64,000 nt of DNA from Saururus chinensis. Its lineage: Eukaryota; Streptophyta; Magnoliopsida; Piperales; Saururaceae. The notes below the pieces were generated by a model, which had not been told where the DNA came from, made no database searches, and saw only the letters and a list, made by a program, of their open reading frames with translations. Made by a program: the position numbers and the translations under genes. How positions within the stretch are numbered: position 1 is the first letter of the stretch; each line of letters starts with the position of its first letter. The stretch lies in the NCBI GenBank assembly GCA_035235625.1, contig CP141145.1, forward strand, positions 42,884,668-42,948,667, in the 5' to 3' direction. Below, piece by piece: positions 18,101-61,998 of this stretch.

Positions 18101-19336
18101 ATGAAGTGGGGGATGGAAATAATATCGCCTATGGCTTATCTATCAAACTCGAATTGGTTCCTTGAAGGCCAGAAAGACGTGAACTGGACCCGCGAAGAGA
18201 ACAAGCGGTTTGAGGATGCTCTTGCGCTCTACGATAAGGATACCTTCGATAGGTGGCACCGGGTGGCGGCTTTGATTCCCGGCAAAACGGTGCCAGATGT
18301 GATTAAACATTACGAGGATTTGGTGTATGATCTGAGCCATATTGAAGCCGGATCGATCCCCATACCTAGATACAGGACTTCTTTCACATTGGAATGGGTC
18401 AACAATCGCAGTGGGATTGATTGTTTGAAATCGTCATGTGGACCTGGACCTGGACCTGGTGGGAAGAGGTCGGCAGCTAGGCCCGAGCAGGAGAGGAAGA
18501 AAGGGGTTCCCTGGACCGAAGAGGAGCACAGGTGAATGTTTTTCTTTTCTCTTTTTTTTTTTGCATGTTATATCTTATTCACAGAGCTCGGACACAACTG
18601 TTTATCACCCTCAAGGTGCCACTTTGTTGAGATAAAAGCTAATTTTTTCTCAAATTTGACCTGTACTTTATATTTTGGTTATCGTTGTATCTGAAACTTC
18701 TTGTTATCTTTAATTAATAGTTTAACTCGTTATGAATTCTGTTTTTGGGCCCTGAGGAGAGGGACATCTGGGTTTTACTTAAATGTTGTTTAAGTTTTCA
18801 TGATTTGATGGTTATCTGCACTCTGCAGGCTATTTTTGATGGGTCTCAAAAAGTACGGCAAAGGAGACTGGAGGAACATTTCCCGCAATTTTGTTGTCAC
18901 GAGGACTCCGACTCAAGTAGCCAGCCATGCACAAAAATATTTCATCAGGCAAGGTTCAGGAGGCAAAGACAAGAGAAGATCCAGCATACACGATATTACT
19001 ACCATCAATCTAACAGACAATGGAGACCCCCCTTCCCCTACCAACTCTCCTGCTCTCTCACTTCAGCCGGGTCTAGCCCCTGCACCCAAAACGCAAGACC
19101 AGTTCTCCCTGCTATTTCAACCGGATCGACCCCCTGAACGGGCCGCTCTTTTCGGCCAGTCATTGCCTCAGACGCGTGGGAACTTGTTCATGCCGCCTCA
19201 TTATGGGATCAATTCCGATGGTTTGAAATCTCAACCGCAAAATCTCCAGAGAGGAAACCTTAATGGATCGCAATTCGGACCCTACAATGCTGTATTTCAG
19301 ATGCACTCAGCACAACACCACCACTCCCATGGATGA
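18101..19336 (+). CDS. DIVARICATA-type MYB (SHAQKYF) transcription factor
   Basis: There are two exons: 18101-18531 and 18829-19336 (intron GTGAAT...CTGCAG, 297 bases). The joined frame gives 312 residues. An N-terminal MYB/SANT repeat occupies about residues 26-78 ([18 protein letters not shown]...). A basic linker follows, then a second MYB repeat at about 132-182 ([24 protein letters not shown]) ending in the diagnostic SHAQKYF at 176-182, followed by [14 protein letters not shown]. This order, the length and the C-terminal tail match the DIVARICATA subfamily, nuclear DNA-binding regulators first known from snapdragon flower asymmetry. Homologues begin MEI, so the start at 18113 (308 residues) may be the real one; an in-frame ATG lies 12 bases before it at 18101. 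The role in this plant is not shown by the sequence. Confidence 0.93.
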
Positions 19337-24840: not shown

Positions 24841-27000
24841 CTTTTGCGTTCTATTCGTTTAGCATTTTCAGGCCATTAAGATACCTGCTACTTTAAATCA
24901 GTCAATGGCAAATTGGTTATCATTTCTAGTATATTTTCAACTCTAGTTTGAAAGTCTTACTTTACCTGATAAACGTAGCAAGGTCATTTGCAATGAGTTT
25001 CTACTTCATACGATTTGAAGTTAGGACGATTTGTACAGCAAAAAGACCAATGCTTTCAAGTTCATGGCTCTATATTGAATCCTTTCGATCAGATAACCTT
25101 GCAAATGGTGAACACTAGCGTGTGTTTTTCGAGTCGTGTCTGTTCCTTTTGTTGATTTCTCTTTTGAGCATATATTATTACAGTTATATATATTTTTGGA
25201 TTAGTCTTGTATCCGCTACTGTAAAGATGGGGGTTTAAATTCATCAACATGAAAGATGGGGATTGAATGAGAAAGGTAAAACAGAGAAAAAAAGCAGGGA
25301 TTGTGTGTATCGGTGTTGTGCAGCTTTTGCAATGCACAGCTTGCCGAAAGAGTTCCCTGCGAAATCAATTGGTTTATTGGAGAAGGTGGGCAGTTGAGTT
25401 TCATTTCTCGTTGAAATATCAACAATCATCTTCCCTACAATTTGTGTAAACTGTGAACCCATGTGTGCTGGTTTTTCTCTTTCTGTTTCATTAATGTTAA
25501 TTGGTAAAAACCACCCCGAGCAATTTCTTGTCAAAAAAATTAGGAAGCTCTTTTTAGTCAGCTCTCTGGCTCAATTAATTGATAGTAAAAAACAAAAAAT
25601 AATAGTTGTATGATGAGGCGGCTTCTAGCGGCGTAGACTGTGCCTGGTTGGTAGTCATGGATCGCATGGAACATACTGCGCCTTGGTGACAACCTCAAAC
25701 CATAATTCATATTCTCGAACGATTAATCATAGGATACTAGTTCAACAAATGCGTTGTGCTTTTGATGTATTTAAACTTCTTGTGAGGAATTATGTGTGTG
25801 TGACAGTAAATCTATTTTTAGAAGCTTTTGGTGCTGAATACAATAAAAACTTGTAGATTTAATGGTAAGATATTTAACTTATTGCATGTAAGATGTAACT
25901 GAAAATAGTTCAGACGAAATTTGATTTTAAAACATGTATGATTAGTGTATACGCTTCTGATTGGGAGTACCTTCTTGTCATTTTGCACCCAAAATATACT
26001 CCCACTTTATGGTTGAAGATCGATGACTCCTGGGATTAAATCTCATGTGGTACTCCTAGTATACCTAATAACTTCGCATTTGGACCATGTCACTATTGAA
26101 TGTTTTAGATAGAGGTTCGGAAACCAAATTCATCATGTTCTATTCGGGGAGTAATTTAATTGTTTGTTAAACTGTGTTACGCAGTGAGTCAGTTCTACTT
26201 AAGATATTTTTCCTCAAATTAACCCCTATGGTCCACTTGGCTTCAATCTTAAGATTCCATACGACTCTCTCATCTCGACTATAACCCAAGGAGTCCGTCA
26301 TGACTCAAATGCATGGATTTGTATCTCCAGTAAAAACAAATGAGGTCCAATCGATTCTATACTAAAATATGCTGTTAAATCGTTGGAGGCTTCTGGAACA
26401 GAAGAAATTGACGATAAAAAGGAAAGGCGCATGCATGAAGTACAAGTTGATTCATCCTTGCCAAAAAAACAGGTGGATTCATTGTTTAAATTCAATGGCC
26501 CCCATCATAAACAAGTTTAAAGCACTGTTTTTTACACAAGTTTTAGTGTACAGCAATAGTATACGTTGTTATTTTTCTTGTGAAAAAGATAAAAAGCTCA
26601 TTGTACAGAAAATTGCAAACTAGTAAAAATAGAAAAAAAAATGTGTTAGCGACTAGATGGGCTCATCCTTAACAAGTTTTTTCATTAAAAGGTCCATCAA
26701 AGTTGAAAAAAATGTTACTTGCGATTTGTCGAGCAAAGTTGTCCCAAACGTAATAATTTTTAACTTTATTCTAGATGTTGAGTTGTTATTTCACTTAAAT
26801 ATAATAAGGAAATATATGTAAAAATCATTATTATTTTTATCGTAACTACAATTAAATATTAATTTAGAGTAACAATACAATGACATAAATATATACCTCA
26901 AATTAAAGAAAAATTATTAATTAAAAATAAAATATTATCAATTAATATGAAATTGTAAAATGTCTCTTTATTTATTTTTTTATTAATTATTCTTTAGTAA
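24841..27000. other. Stretch without a recognisable gene
   Basis: Several short overlapping frames on both strands near 25089-25534 and 26298-26623 do not resemble known proteins. I saw no chain of exons. From about 26700 the sequence becomes very AT-rich. Confidence 0.4.
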
Positions 27001-39600: not shown

Positions 39601-43645
<4,045 letters not shown>

Positions 43646-44598
43646 AGGTGAATATTCTTTCTCTCCTTTTTTCTTTCTGTTCAATTTAAATTTCACCAAG
43701 TGGTGTTATCCTGTACGTTAGAAAAGAAATTTTCTTAATTTTTCCTTACAATGGTGGATGTTACTGTACATAAAATACCTGTTATATTACATAATCAATG
43801 ATGGCTAGGAAAATAAATAAATGCAGGTACTGCATCTAAACCTGAGAAGAGGCTTAATTTAAATTTGGGTGCGAATATCATCACTACTAAAATGTTATTT
43901 GTTTTAACAATTGAAAATGATAATTTATGAGTTAAACTCATACAGTATCATTTTATTACATTGTTTACCTTCATCTTTAATCTGATGGAAGCTTTAATAT
44001 ATGTGAGAATGACTAATCTGCAACAGTCGGCCTCGAAAACATCTTGCAGATAGTGGTTATTCATCTTTAATCTGATGGAAGCTTTAATATATGTGAGAAT
44101 GACTAATCTGCAACAGTCAGCCTCAAAAACATCTTGCAGATAGTGACTATTACGGCTTGTCATTCTCACATCTATTAAAAGCTGCCATCAAACTTCTATA
44201 CTGGTTCAAAAACATCCTCAGAAATTAAAGATGAATGGCATGACAAGGGGGCAAAGATAAATCGGAAGAAGAGGGGAGGGAAAAGGAAAGAGATATCTTT
44301 AATGGGGGGGGGGAGGGAAAATCTTTCTGCAGGACTTTGAACTTTTAATTTCTTGTCTGCAAGATACTTTTCTGCGTGGCATAAGCATAGGATCAGAAAG
44401 AATGGTAGCTTCTATGAGTGTCTTGTGTATTTTAGGGAAGTCAGTAATGTAGTCTGTCATAAGTTCTGAGGTATTTTTTTCTACTGATTGTTCACAACAG
44501 GATGTTTACATAGCTGACACTTCCAGTTCCAGCACAAGTGTGTTAGGTCCGGATCATTGGTGCCAATGACTTTGGATTATCAGTGCTAATGGCTTTAG
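43646..44598 (+). other. THIC 3' UTR, upstream part with constitutive intron
   Basis: A good 5' splice site (AAG/GTGAAT, 43650/43651) sits just behind the stop codon, as in other plant THIC genes. Two acceptors fit: AAATGCAG at 43826, or GTTCACAACAG at 44501. The second gives a 97-base exon (44502-44598) that ends precisely at the strong GTAAGT donor at 44599. With the second acceptor, the duplicated and inverted repeats at 43971-44240 fall within the intron. Transcript data are needed to choose. Confidence 0.55.
43971..44240. repeat. Tandem 90 bp duplication with a following inverted copy
   Basis: 43971-44060 and 44061-44150 are nearly identical direct repeats, differing at about four positions. 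Then 44161-44190 and about 44226-44238 carry reverse-complement copies of the repeat's TGATGGAAGCTTTAATATAT/GTGAGAATG and TTCATCTTTAA parts. A transcript across this part of the THIC 3' region could fold into a hairpin. The duplication looks recent. Confidence 0.85.
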
Positions 44599-44632
44599 GT
44601 AAGTAATAAGTCTGTCTGTTTGAATAAATCGG
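44590..44632 (+). promoter_or_regulatory. Candidate regulated 5' splice site and poly(A) signal of THIC
   Basis: CTTTAG/GTAAGTAAT at 44598/44599 is a near-ideal donor. AATAAA follows at 44623-44628, inside the intron that this donor would define. In characterised plant THIC genes, splicing from a 3' UTR donor removes a poly(A) site, giving long, unstable transcripts when TPP is high; without splicing, the short stable transcript forms. The arrangement here fits that model. Candidate acceptors are CTTGGACAG at 44889 (behind aptamer 1) and GTCTGGCAG at 45679 (behind aptamer 2). Confidence 0.65.
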
Positions 44633-44736
44633 CCTGGTGTCAACTCAATCAAGAGATTCTCATAGTAAGAACTTTTATTTAAATAATCTACATTCGTTTC
44701 CTTTTCTTTTTATATGTACTTGTATATTGAAAAATC

Positions 44737-44858
44737 ATTGCACCGGGGGTGCCTCTTTCTGCTTCAGACCTTTGCTGCTGGCCAGGGTCTGGGCAGTTCT
44801 GGCTGAGAAAGTCCCTTAGAACCTGATCAGGATCATGCCTGCGTAGGGAGTGTGCAAT
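44737..44858 (+). promoter_or_regulatory. TPP riboswitch aptamer 1 (proximal, canonical)
   Basis: P1 is a perfect 7-bp stem (ATTGCAC at 44737-44743 with GTGCAAT at 44852-44858). The conserved GGGGGTGCC strand, an extended plant-type P3, the pyrimidine-binding CTGAGAAAGTCCC strand and TTAGAACCTGAT follow. P5 is CAGG (44828-44831) with CCTG (44838-44841), and the pyrophosphate-side strand is GCGTAGGGA. Every conserved element of the class is present, so it should bind thiamin pyrophosphate. It lies about 140 bases downstream of the regulated donor and 1.1 kb behind the THIC stop codon, the usual plant location. Its ACCTGA (44821-44826) can pair with the donor over 6 positions including one wobble. 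Confidence 0.95.
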
Positions 44859-45520
44859 TTTCCTTTGTTCTTTTTGTGTGCTTGGACAGGGCTTCTGAAA
44901 CCATCGCACAATTTTGTGGGACTGGAACCAAATTGGCATATCCGTCGTGCACTGGGAAGTACTCCAAACTTCTTTTGGTGTTTTTAATTGAAATAAGAAA
45001 GACTGGTAGACTGGTGCCTGCTACTTTACAGACAATGGTGAAAATAGAATATAGAAATTCTCCAGGTGGGAATCTGCGTCATGTTCACACAAGTTGGAGG
45101 GATCATATGCAACGATTCAACAAGGTCACATTCCTTCTGTCTGTATTTTCCCCGCAAGAGAAAATTCAGTCAAACCCGGATGGGGGCACCATAAAAAATC
45201 CCTGAACTAGGAGCCTATAATGTGATGCTATTTTTTTGGAAGCGCTCCAATCATATTTTATCTTGGTATTGATGCATGGAGCTTCTCTATCTATCAACTC
45301 TTAATTACATGTTATCTTTAGCTAAAACTTTTGAGGCAGAGACAAGGATTGAGCTGAAATTTTTGGGGCGTTGGCACACCTCATTTTGGTGCCCACTAAC
45401 ATATAATGGGATATGACGTAGTTATCATATAATGCTTGCAGTCTCGTCTATTTTGAGTGAAGTAGAAAAGCTCATTGATTCAAGCAAATTTGTTTTTCTT
45501 GCATAGAACTGATTCGCAAT

Positions 45521-45650
45521 CAGCACCAGGGGTGCCTGACCCTTGTCTCTCTGGTACTAATGCGTGCTTGCTCAAAGGGAGGGGCAGGTGGCGGGCTGAG
45601 AAAGTCCCTTTGAACCTTACCTGGGCAATGCCTGTGTAGCGAGTGTGCTG
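45521..45650 (+). promoter_or_regulatory. Second TPP riboswitch aptamer (distal, partly altered)
   Basis: This is a second copy of the same fold. P1 is a perfect 6-bp stem (CAGCAC at 45521-45526 with GTGCTG at 45645-45650). CCAGGGGTGCC, an extended P3 and CTGAGAAAGTCCCTTTGAACC are conserved. The pyrophosphate half is changed: the GAT of CCTGAT is TAC (45618-45620), P5 is CTGG/CCTG with a T-T mismatch (45622 and 45633), CGT is TGT (45635-45637), and AGG of AGGGA is AGC (45638-45640), which leaves a C-C mismatch in P4. TPP affinity is therefore probably reduced or lost. The altered strand CTTACCTGGG (45616-45625) can pair with 10 bases at the THIC donor (44594-44603). P3 and flanks differ strongly from aptamer 1, so the duplication is not very recent. 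Confidence 0.88.
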
Positions 45651-45679
45651 TTTGCCGATACTTCTGTGTTGTCTGGCAG

Positions 45680-46780
45680 CAGGATATTAGGCTGGTGCAC
45701 TCGCAATCTCTTGTTTGGGGCACCCATGTCCGTACCTGCCTTGTATGTGAATTAATGTTGAGTGCATCAAATATCTGGAATAAGGATGTGATTAACAAAG
45801 CCTCGCGTCCGAAGTCGGTAATTTGGTATGGCATATTTTTAGTTGACGTCTTACAATTCTGGAACTAGGAGTATGTAGTGTGTTAGAATGCCTTCTGGTT
45901 TTAGGTGTGCATTTTTTGTTAAGAACAAAAATCGTGGGTGGGATAGAGTTTTTAAGATTTTAACAGTAGACTAGCTCTAGATGACCAAGCTAATAAAATT
46001 TTAGCGACAGAACCTAACATACCCTTATTCTATTGCAAGATGAATCAACACAGTTCAGTGAACTATAAGGGCAAGAAAATCATGTAAAAGTTGTCTGCTG
46101 TCATTTCTTGATTTTTGTGAGCATTTTTGGTGGCCATTGCATAAATACCATGAGTTATTAAAAAATGAGCTATTAAAAAAGGAAAAATTATGTGTTAGAT
46201 CATAAAAGAAATATTTTTTTAATAGCTCGAGCTTTTAGGAAATTTGGTTATTTTATATGGTATGGGAGCTCTAACTCCATGTTAGAGGTCTTAGTTTAAG
46301 TCTTGTTGGAGGTGGTTATACCCTATTTATATTTTATGTGTCGTGTTTGATGGATGTTTGCATGTGAGGGGTGTTAGATTATAAAAAAAAATTAAAAAAA
46401 TTTATTATTTTTTTAATAGTTTGAGCTTTTGGGAAATATAATTATCTTACAATATGTGATTGAGTGCGTATTTTAGATATGTGTGAGCAACATTAATAGC
46501 TGATGGCATTCTTAGGGGGGTTAGAGATAACCTACCCACCCCCTGAATAACGAATACTGCATAGTCAAGATTGTGTGGCTGGTGCATGCTAATGGGCCCT
46601 TTGCAAAAATAGACAACCCTCGTTGTGAAACTTGTGTATAAGTAATAAATCAACCCCCGGTACTTGACATTCCGCCAAACGAATTAGTATATTTATATAA
46701 ATGTTAGCATATTAAGAGTTAGCATAAAGGAGTTAGAGTGGGGGCGCAAGATCTTACTAGGCGATTATTATAACTTGAGA
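45680..46780. other. Region downstream of THIC
   Basis: The first part is probably the long-form THIC 3' UTR. From about 45900 the sequence is AT-rich intergenic DNA with no supported gene. A loosely duplicated motif (ATTAAAAAA..TTTTTTTAATAG..GAGCTTT) occurs near 46190-46240 and 46380-46430. Confidence 0.45.
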
Positions 46781-46782
46781 GT

Positions 46783-47668
46783 TAGGGGTGTTCACAGACA
46801 GAAATGGACACGGACATAGGGTTGTCCGTGTTCGTTCGTTATTTGAATAACTTTTCTCCGTGTCTGCCTTAGTCTATAATATATTTTGTCCACGTTCATC
46901 CGTTACAGACACGGACAGACATGGACAAATATTTTGATACCGAAATTTTTATCTCAATCTAATTTTTTTAGAATTTCTATAACATGTAAAAGTTATTTTA
47001 ACATGTTACATAGGTACTAAAACTATGTTTTTAAGTTATATAATACTCATGTAGTATATTAATATGTTATATAAGTTTTAGATTTATATTTTCAAACTGT
47101 CCAGCACCTATGTAGTATATTAGGACTGTTCTAACATAGTACATAAGTATTAGATTCATGTTTTCAAATTGTTTGCAGCATGTTAAGACTATTCGAACAT
47201 GAAACATAAATATTTGATTTATGTTTTTAAATTGTCAAAATACCTATGTAGCATGTTAGGACTGTTCTAACACGGTACATAAGTACTGAATTCATATTTT
47301 CAAATTGTCAAGTGCCCATGTAGCATGTTAGAACTATTCTAATATGCTACATAAGTACTAGATTCATGTTTTCAAGTTATCAAATGTCTATGTAGCATAT
47401 TAGGACTGGCCTAAGATGCTACATAGGAACTAAATTTTATTTTTTTTCTAATAGTTAGTAATAATTACTACTATATTTAAGAAAATCTTAAGTAAGTGGC
47501 GGACGCGGACGTCCGCGAACACGGACAAGGGTATGTCCGTGTCCGTAGCTACCTAAAACTTTGTTCATGTCTGTTTCCGGCACGAACAAAAAATAATGTT
47601 CATTCTATATAAAAATGGACATAGACATGGACGGACATACGGACAACAGACGTCCATAAACATCCCTA
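46783..47668. mobile_element. Non-autonomous hAT-like DNA transposon
   Basis: The ends are TAGGGGTGTTCA (from 46783) and TAAACATCCCTA (to 47668), which fit the hAT terminal pattern. The flanking 8-base words TTGAGAGT (46775-46782) and TTGGGAGC (47669-47676) match at 6 of 8 positions, both differences being transitions, as expected for an aged hAT target duplication. Subterminal regions are rich in GGACA/TGTCC words in both orientations. The interior is a tandem hairpin array (46975-47440) with no transposase. Confidence 0.8.
46975..47440. repeat. Tandem array of ~72 bp hairpin-forming units
   Basis: About six diverged units follow the pattern ACATAAGTACTAGATTCATG, then TTTTCAAATTGTCAA, then a self-complementary part. 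The clearest example (about 47389-47425) is ATGTAGCATATTAGG, a five-base loop, then CCTAAGATGCTACAT. Each unit can fold on itself, and changes on one arm are often matched on the other. Confidence 0.8.
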
Positions 47669-60783: not shown

Positions 60784-61998
60784 ATGAGGTTAAGAACAAT
60801 CTAAATCGTGTGAGGCTTGAACACGAAACTAAAGGTCTCATTGTAGTCAATGCCTTCTTCTTAATGAAACCCTTTGGCAACTAGGCATACATTGTACCAA
60901 GAGATGGTCCCATTGGCATTGCATTTGACTTTGTAAGTCCAAGTGCCTTAGGTTTGGAGGGTATTGATCTCCTCATCCATAGCGGCACACCATTTAGGAA
61001 TAGAGGAAGCAATTTTGAAGGAAGGGGGTTCGATATGAGGAGGGGAGAGAGTGATAAGAGAGAATGGAATGCAAGGGCATACTATCCCGGCTTTGCTACA
61101 AGTGATCATCAGGTGAGAATGTAGAGGGGGGAGAAGGTGTGTGAGAGGATTGGGTCCGGGAGAGAAATGAGAGAGGGAGGGGAGAGAGGGGGTAAGGGTA
61201 TAGGGTGATGGTGTGAGGGAGTTGGGGGTATGGGTGGAGGAAGATGGTGGAGGGATGGACATAGGAAGAGAGATGGGGGGTGTAGAGGTTGTAGGGGTTG
61301 GGTGGTCTTGGTAGGAGAATTCATCCTCTCGAAAGCGGACGTGGCAGGAAGTGTAGATGCAATAGGAGAGTGGGTCAAGGCAACGGTATCCTTTGGTGGT
61401 AGGGCAATAACCGAGAAAAATGCATGAGATGGCATGTGGAGAGAGTTTATGGGGGAGTGGGACGGGTCAAAGGGAAGCAATGACAACCAAAGGTTTTAAG
61501 GTGGGAATAGTCGTGCAGTGTTTGAAAGAGGAGTTGGTAGGGGATAGGTTTTGTAGGGAAGGAGAGGGAAGGCGATTGATAAGGTAGGTTACGGTGCAAG
61601 TAGCATCCACCCAATAGGAGAACGACATTTTGGCATGGGAGAGGAGGGCGATGGTAGTTTTTATGATGTGTCAGTGTTTTTGTTCATAACTCCATTTTTT
61701 TCGGGGGTGTGGGAGCAAAAGGTTTGGTGGGAGATGTTGTGGGAGGAGAGGTTGGAAGAGAGGTGGTGGTTGAGGTATTCACCACCATTGTCGGTGAGGA
61801 TGGTGGTAAGGGTGTGTTTGAGGGTCTGTTTGGCCATAACATGGAAGAGGTGGAAATATTTAGTGACATCGGATTTAAGTTTGAGGGGGTAAAGCCAAAT
61901 GTAATAGGAGAAGTCATTTATAAAGAATATGTAGCAGTGAAAGCTGAGAAAGGATAAGACCGGAGAGGGACCCTAAACGTCCAAGTGGACAAGTTCTA
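60784..61998 (-). mobile_element. Copia pol relic, 5' part (integrase and linker)
   Basis: On the minus strand the frame reads an integrase core: SYYIWLYPLKLKSDVTKYF, TILTDNGGEY (catalytic Asp), then HTPEKNGV at the position of the usual PQQNGV. A Pro/Ser/Thr-rich linker follows, then the RT start region (PKWCAAMDEEINTLQT). It is continuous with 56521-57677 once the LTR is left out. The element is broken again at about 61999, so the gag and protease parts are not seen. Confidence 0.85.

Follow-up and report, generated by a model that had tools for sequence, protein, structure and literature searches.

TPP-aptamer-like elements in tandem behind THIC of Saururus chinensis: a complete pocket in one copy, acceptor AGs in the other

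Does the THIC gene of Saururus chinensis carry two working TPP sensors in its 3' region, or one sensor and a duplicate that has followed another course? The question arises from a first-pass annotation, which described two separate sequences with the full TPP aptamer layout, lying 662 bases apart on the same strand behind THIC, and proposed that they could give a steeper or two-step response to TPP or that one of them may be retired. We have analysed the window, i.e. the whole 64,000-nucleotide stretch of DNA from contig CP141145.1, with regard to the gene, the two elements and the splicing signals around them. The TPP-aptamer-like elements standing in tandem behind THIC are homologous, but they are not two equal sensors.

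THIC and the two elements behind it

The THIC coding region spans 40486..43645 on the + strand and comprises 647 codons in four exons (40486-40790, 40924-41051, 41545-42371 and 42962-43645), as defined by a splice model with open translation and by angiosperm protein matches. The top full-length proteins, among the matches listed in the protein search, are angiosperm THIC (Magnolia, 86%; Tasmannia, 86%). In a protein tree built from the window sequence and 35 of at least 120 matching proteins, the window sequence adjoins Spirodela with a support of 94/86, on a branch that is not starred, a placement that, taken by itself, would point to a probable early monocot. The stop codon occupies 43643-43645, and both aptamer-like elements are found downstream of it on the + strand. 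In other respects, a 90-nt tandem duplication (96% identical), accompanied by a third, inverted arm, is present at 43970-44190, within what is probably the first intron of the THIC 3' UTR, and resembles a small mobile element.

When the whole 64 kb were searched with Rfam at curated thresholds, a single TPP aptamer was reported. This element, copy 1 (44735..44867, + strand), scores 64.7 bits with RF00059, above the gathering score of 54.3 bits. At a relaxed threshold, the search of 43600-46500 (2901 bases) added a second element, copy 2 (45518..45660, + strand), with 41.2 bits and an E value of 5.5e-6, below the gathering score. A score above threshold for the first copy alone, the outcome that the annotation had named as refuting its claim, is thus what the search gives. 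The local alignment of the two copies nevertheless scores 98, whereas shuffled sequences average 22.0 (sd 3.8) and none of 300 dinucleotide shuffles reaches 98. Over the 63 nt starting at CTGAGA, the copies share 81% identity. Their flanks, examined in three tests, show no alignment above that of shuffles (113, 278 and 253 of 300 shuffles reach the respective scores). Since a match below the Rfam cut-off is joined to an alignment far above shuffles, with flanks that do not align, copy 2 is a true but diverged duplicate of copy 1.

Several elements of the annotation are confirmed by these data, namely, the presence of two related elements on the same strand behind THIC and their perfect P1 stems. 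That of copy 1 has 7 bp (44737-44743 with 44852-44858), and that of copy 2, which is intact, has 6 bp (45521-45526 with 45645-45650). The spacing that it gave is close to the 650 nt that separate the two Rfam matches (44867 to 45518).

Other origins of the second element were considered. An assembly duplication is ruled out by the differences between the copies in P3 length and at eight P4-P5 positions out of 23, and a remnant of a second THIC gene by a tblastn search of THIC against the window, which gave four matches at E values up to 10, all of them known exons. A long tandem unit including the flanks is not supported, given the flank scores reported above. Neither is a transposon carrying copy 2 alone, as the inverted pairs around copy 2 (I1, I6, I10 and I15; 72-87% complementary range, arms 2.0-2.6 kb apart) enclose copy 1 as well. 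Homology of the AGs located behind the copies (44889 versus 45679-45682) is weak, its score being reached by 93 of 2000 shuffles and by 236 of 9103 40-mers of the window.

Pocket, acceptors and folding of the two copies

As a yardstick for the TPP pocket, we used 28 bacterial aptamers, obtained from 127 relatives, of which 80 ThiC loci were kept and 40 scanned with Rfam (28 with a TPP match, 12 with none). In the 3' half of these aptamers, 12 positions are invariant in 28/28. A pattern scan of viral contigs yielded six loci (including L002), none of which was used. Copy 1 possesses 12/12 invariant residues, both binding motifs (CUGAGA and GCG) and four of the four P4 pairs, one G-U counted. 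Copy 2 possesses 9/12, and the three losses (45618, 45635 and 45640) all fall in P4 or in the P4-P5 internal loop; the altered arm spans 45618..45640 on the + strand. In the same arm, two of the four P4 pairs are replaced by mismatches (C-C and U-U), one of the four P5 pairs is broken (U-U), and the sequence reads GUG in place of GCG, its C being lost. The GCG triplet has been named the pyrophosphate motif (PMC9544697), and residue 45635 falls in it. In a register counted from the L5 residues A57 and A58 (PMC6414600), 45635 would be equivalent to C65 of Arabidopsis, which has been reported to contact the beta-phosphate of TPP directly (PMC6414600). Because 3/12 invariant residues, including the C of GCG, and 2/4 P4 pairs are lost, copy 2 probably does not bind TPP. 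The full aptamer layout attributed to both elements is therefore not confirmed for copy 2, with its 41.2 bits, its P4/P5 mismatches and its three missing invariant residues.

The splice acceptors are distributed in the opposite way. For plants and green algae, the AG at which the regulated intron ends has been described within the AGGG of P2 (PMC9544697). Splicing in Arabidopsis removes the first seven nucleotides of the aptamer (PMC9264592, PMC5853225) or, in a newer variant, the first nucleotide alone (PMC9264592), and the oil palm aptamer carries CAGC in P1 and AGGGG in P2 (PMC7390266). At its 5' end, copy 2 harbours CAGCACCAG (45521..45529, + strand), with both aptamer-borne AGs kept (45522-45523 and 45528-45529); their role as acceptors would follow by analogy with Arabidopsis (PMC9264592, PMC9544697), and the lengths removed by splicing suggest that they are the counterparts of the two Arabidopsis acceptors. 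The corresponding segment of copy 1, TTGCACCGG (44738..44746, + strand), has neither: where copy 2 reads CAGCACCAGGGG, containing both AGs, copy 1 reads TTGCACCGGGGG. Hence, the plant-type AG at the 5' end and in P2 (AGGG) is missing from the copy with the intact sensor and present in the other. Although both sides of P1 have changed in copy 1, this stem is still paired, because the opposite strand differs too. The base preceding GGGG, inspected by eye, is G in two of the 28 bacterial aptamers (L041 and L066), the remaining 26 having A or C; it thus seems free as far as TPP binding is concerned, and for this reason the sensor of copy 1 should work, though its conserved acceptor is gone. At the level of sequence, the losses of the two copies are thus complementary: copy 1 has kept the pocket without the acceptor AGs, copy 2 these AGs without the pocket.

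Further candidate acceptors on the + strand surround these elements. Two of them may replace the lost AGs of copy 1, one in its P3 (44766..44767, preceded by 65% pyrimidines) and one behind it (44888..44889, 76%), while a third possible acceptor directly precedes copy 2 (45505..45506). The latter has 71% pyrimidines upstream, versus less than 60% for the two AGs within copy 2. On the minus strand, a consensus-like 5' splice site, CCCAG/GTAAGG, was noticed inside copy 2 (45611-45625, with GT at 45620).

With regard to folding, copy 2 keeps CUGAGA, P1, P2 and P3. Its canonical fold, with P1, P2 and the formable P4/P5 pairs enforced, lies 7.4 kcal/mol above the minimum, compared with 1.1 kcal/mol for copy 1, and its minimum-energy fold differs from the aptamer fold. 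Considered as whole aptamers, with z values of -0.60 and -0.83, neither copy folds better than its own shuffles. In copy 2, the P3 stem (45534..45596, + strand) is diverged in sequence and strongly folded (z -2.61, with one of 200 shuffles as good), as is P3 of copy 1 (z -3.03, 0/200); between the copies, 29 of 45 aligned P3 positions are identical and the lengths are 47 versus 57 nt. The differences in the core concentrate in P4-P5, with 8/23 positions compared with 2/46 in the rest (Fisher p 0.0016), a spread that is not one of even decay as judged from the aligned copies. This conservation pattern could, however, also have arisen by gene conversion of the conserved stretches or by a duplication limited to the aptamer itself. 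Finally, the P4-P5 arm of copy 2 can form an alternative hairpin of nine pairs (-6.2 kcal/mol).

A possible division of sensing and splicing, and its rivals

When TPP is scarce, the aptamer of the known plant switch covers a 5' splice site, and a short, stable transcript is made (PMC9264592). Candidate sites for such regulation are present upstream of copy 1. The first, S1 (GAG/GTATTT, 44471..44472, + strand), can pair with copy 1 over 9 bp and lies within the best upstream pairing of this copy (-18.1 kcal/mol); the length of this helix is not unusual, as 29 of the 65 control regions taken from the window equal it. The second, S2 (TTTAG/GTAAGTA, 44599..44600, + strand), finds its complement in the P4-P5 strand of copy 2. 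An AATAAA located by its pattern at 44623..44628 (+ strand), between S1/S2 and copy 1, may serve the short transcript as poly(A) signal; the next downstream AATAAA motifs are at 45992 and 46644.

The reading that we prefer, tentatively and with somewhat less than even confidence, is that the THIC 3' region underwent an old duplication and that the two resulting aptamer copies then suffered complementary losses, leaving copy 1 as the sole TPP sensor, while the sensor-dead copy 2 may supply the acceptor of a long unstable transcript. Copy 1 alone would sense TPP; copy 2, with its dead pocket, would have retained the structured P1-P2-P3 part and both aptamer-borne acceptors. At high TPP, copy 1 would fold around the ligand and free the 5' splice site; splicing from there to an acceptor within copy 2 or close to it would cut out both copy 1 and the poly(A) site, giving rise to the long unstable transcript. 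Copy 2 would thus supply, or would once have supplied, the acceptor. Long THIC transcripts of Arabidopsis have been reported to extend up to about 1 kb further (PMC10226581), a distance that would suffice to reach copy 2. The stricter form of this proposal, in which sensing resides in copy 1 and the acceptor in copy 2, so that one regulatory decision would depend on a pair of aptamer-derived modules separated by about 790 nt, appears doubtful, though still a serious candidate. If it were true, the split copies would show how evolution can take apart a eukaryotic riboswitch, and the need for an acceptor inside the sensing aptamer would become testable.

The residue counts (12/12 versus 9/12), the distribution of the AGs, the pairing of P1, the P3 stem of copy 2 and the uneven divergence argue for this division. 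Against it stand the replacement acceptors near copy 1 (44767 and 44889), the pyrimidine content of under 60% before the internal AGs of copy 2, the S1 helix, which is no better than those of the 29 control regions, the seventh rank of S2 among the partners of copy 2, and whole-aptamer folds similar to those of shuffles.

Almost as likely is a plainer history: copy 1 would work as a complete riboswitch by itself, with 44889 or 44767 as its replacement acceptor, and copy 2 would be a retired duplicate devoid of function. Such a riboswitch could use the AGs that lie within copy 1 and behind it, whose pyrimidine tracts are fair, and copy 2 has the features of a relic, with a score under the RF00059 cut-off, a broken pocket and P4, and a minimum fold that is not that of the aptamer. 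However, a relic would not readily account for changes that are so uneven between P4-P5 and the rest of the core, for a P3 that is still strongly folded or for the retention of both AGs. The suggestion of the first-pass annotation that one copy may be retired comes close to these findings for the sensing part of copy 2; the loss of both aptamer-borne acceptors from copy 1 and their retention in copy 2 had not been remarked on there.

The complementarity between S2 and copy 2 raises another scenario, in which the changed P4-P5 strand of copy 2 constitutively masks this strong 5' splice site. When the 13-nt site is compared with 1860 downstream windows, this strand, which matches it over seven Watson-Crick pairs, gives the strongest complement (-13.7 versus -10.1 kcal/mol for the next), and one as good was reached in 95 of 20000 random-decay trials, or 113 of 20000 when the changes were held to the same positions. 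Yet, S2 was chosen after inspection of the sequence, and a 27-nt query reduces the margin to a near tie (-14.7 versus -14.1). Moreover, seen from copy 2, S2 ranks seventh among the upstream partners (-13.7 versus -16.4 kcal/mol for the best), six other stretches pairing with copy 2 as strongly or more strongly. We consider such masking improbable.

Binding of TPP by both copies, with the steeper or two-step response put forward in the annotation, is still less probable. The P1, P2, CUGAGA and P3 elements are common to both copies, and tandem TPP riboswitches are known, with 213 representatives (PMC9481103), but a complete TPP pocket is found in copy 1 only, copy 2 lacking the GCG motif with its C, two further invariant residues and a formed P4, and scoring below the RF00059 cut-off. 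Least probable of all is a copy 2 of changed specificity, sensing thiamin, TMP or the pyrimidine part alone, an idea that stems from the restriction of its changes to the pyrophosphate arm, with CUGAGA, P2 and P3 retained, from the other nine-pair hairpin open to this arm and from TPP-class RNAs, some of which favour thiamin or TMP (PMC9481103), but which has no comparative support and meets a canonical fold disfavoured by 7.4 kcal/mol.

Relation to known TPP riboswitches

The division of sensing and acceptor that we tentatively prefer can be set against the THIC 3'-UTR riboswitches of Arabidopsis (AT2G29630), oil palm and cassava (PMC9264592, PMC5853225, PMC7390266). As in these plants, a TPP aptamer follows THIC on the + strand, candidate 5' splice sites and an AATAAA lie upstream of copy 1, and AG acceptors occur at the 5' end of an aptamer, here in copy 2. 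Unlike the known plant switch, the Saururus gene has two copies, of which the first alone has the complete sensor and the second alone the acceptor AGs, whereas in the plant literature examined, sensor and splice acceptor are combined in one aptamer. The THIC 3'-UTR aptamers of diatoms resemble copy 1 in the absence of an AG acceptor from P2, but they have been described with one copy, while here a second one bears the AG (PMC9544697). In this group without the P2 AG, the Phaeodactylum aptamer (P. tricornutum) has been reported not to regulate THIC (PMC9544697).

Tandem TPP riboswitches likewise place two TPP-class elements with one gene (PMC9481103), but the Saururus pair differs from those described there by its position in a plant 3' region and by its one degraded pocket; the terms 'plant' and 'eukaryot' have no occurrence in the main text of that review. 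NMT1 of Saprolegnia, another gene from a eukaryote, also carries a pair of related TPP aptamers, located in introns of its 5' UTR; it differs by its oomycete host, its 5'-UTR location, the gene concerned and the high similarity of its copies (PMC5882874). In plants, a 2020 paper presents the TPP riboswitch as the sole riboswitch reported (PMC7200797), and what has been called a second TPP riboswitch belongs to another gene, THI1 (PMC10226581). In the open-access literature covered (titles, beginnings of abstracts and passages, with the founding plant papers outside this scope), no description of two TPP aptamers in one plant gene was found among the papers listed, which is weak evidence of absence.

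Elsewhere in the window, an H/ACA snoRNA, snoR135, was identified by Rfam on the + strand (25291-25442, 116 bits). Reading frames at 18101-19336 encode Myb-like DNA-binding domains, and one at 30266-31540 matches the FtsH_ext domain (E 9.5e-07). Downstream of copy 2, 46980-47420 contains A+T-rich units, loosely repeated when judged by eye, which are variants of 'gtagcatgttaggact', and a fragment of a retroviral-polymerase SH3-like domain on the minus strand (60948-61466) is the remnant of a retroelement.
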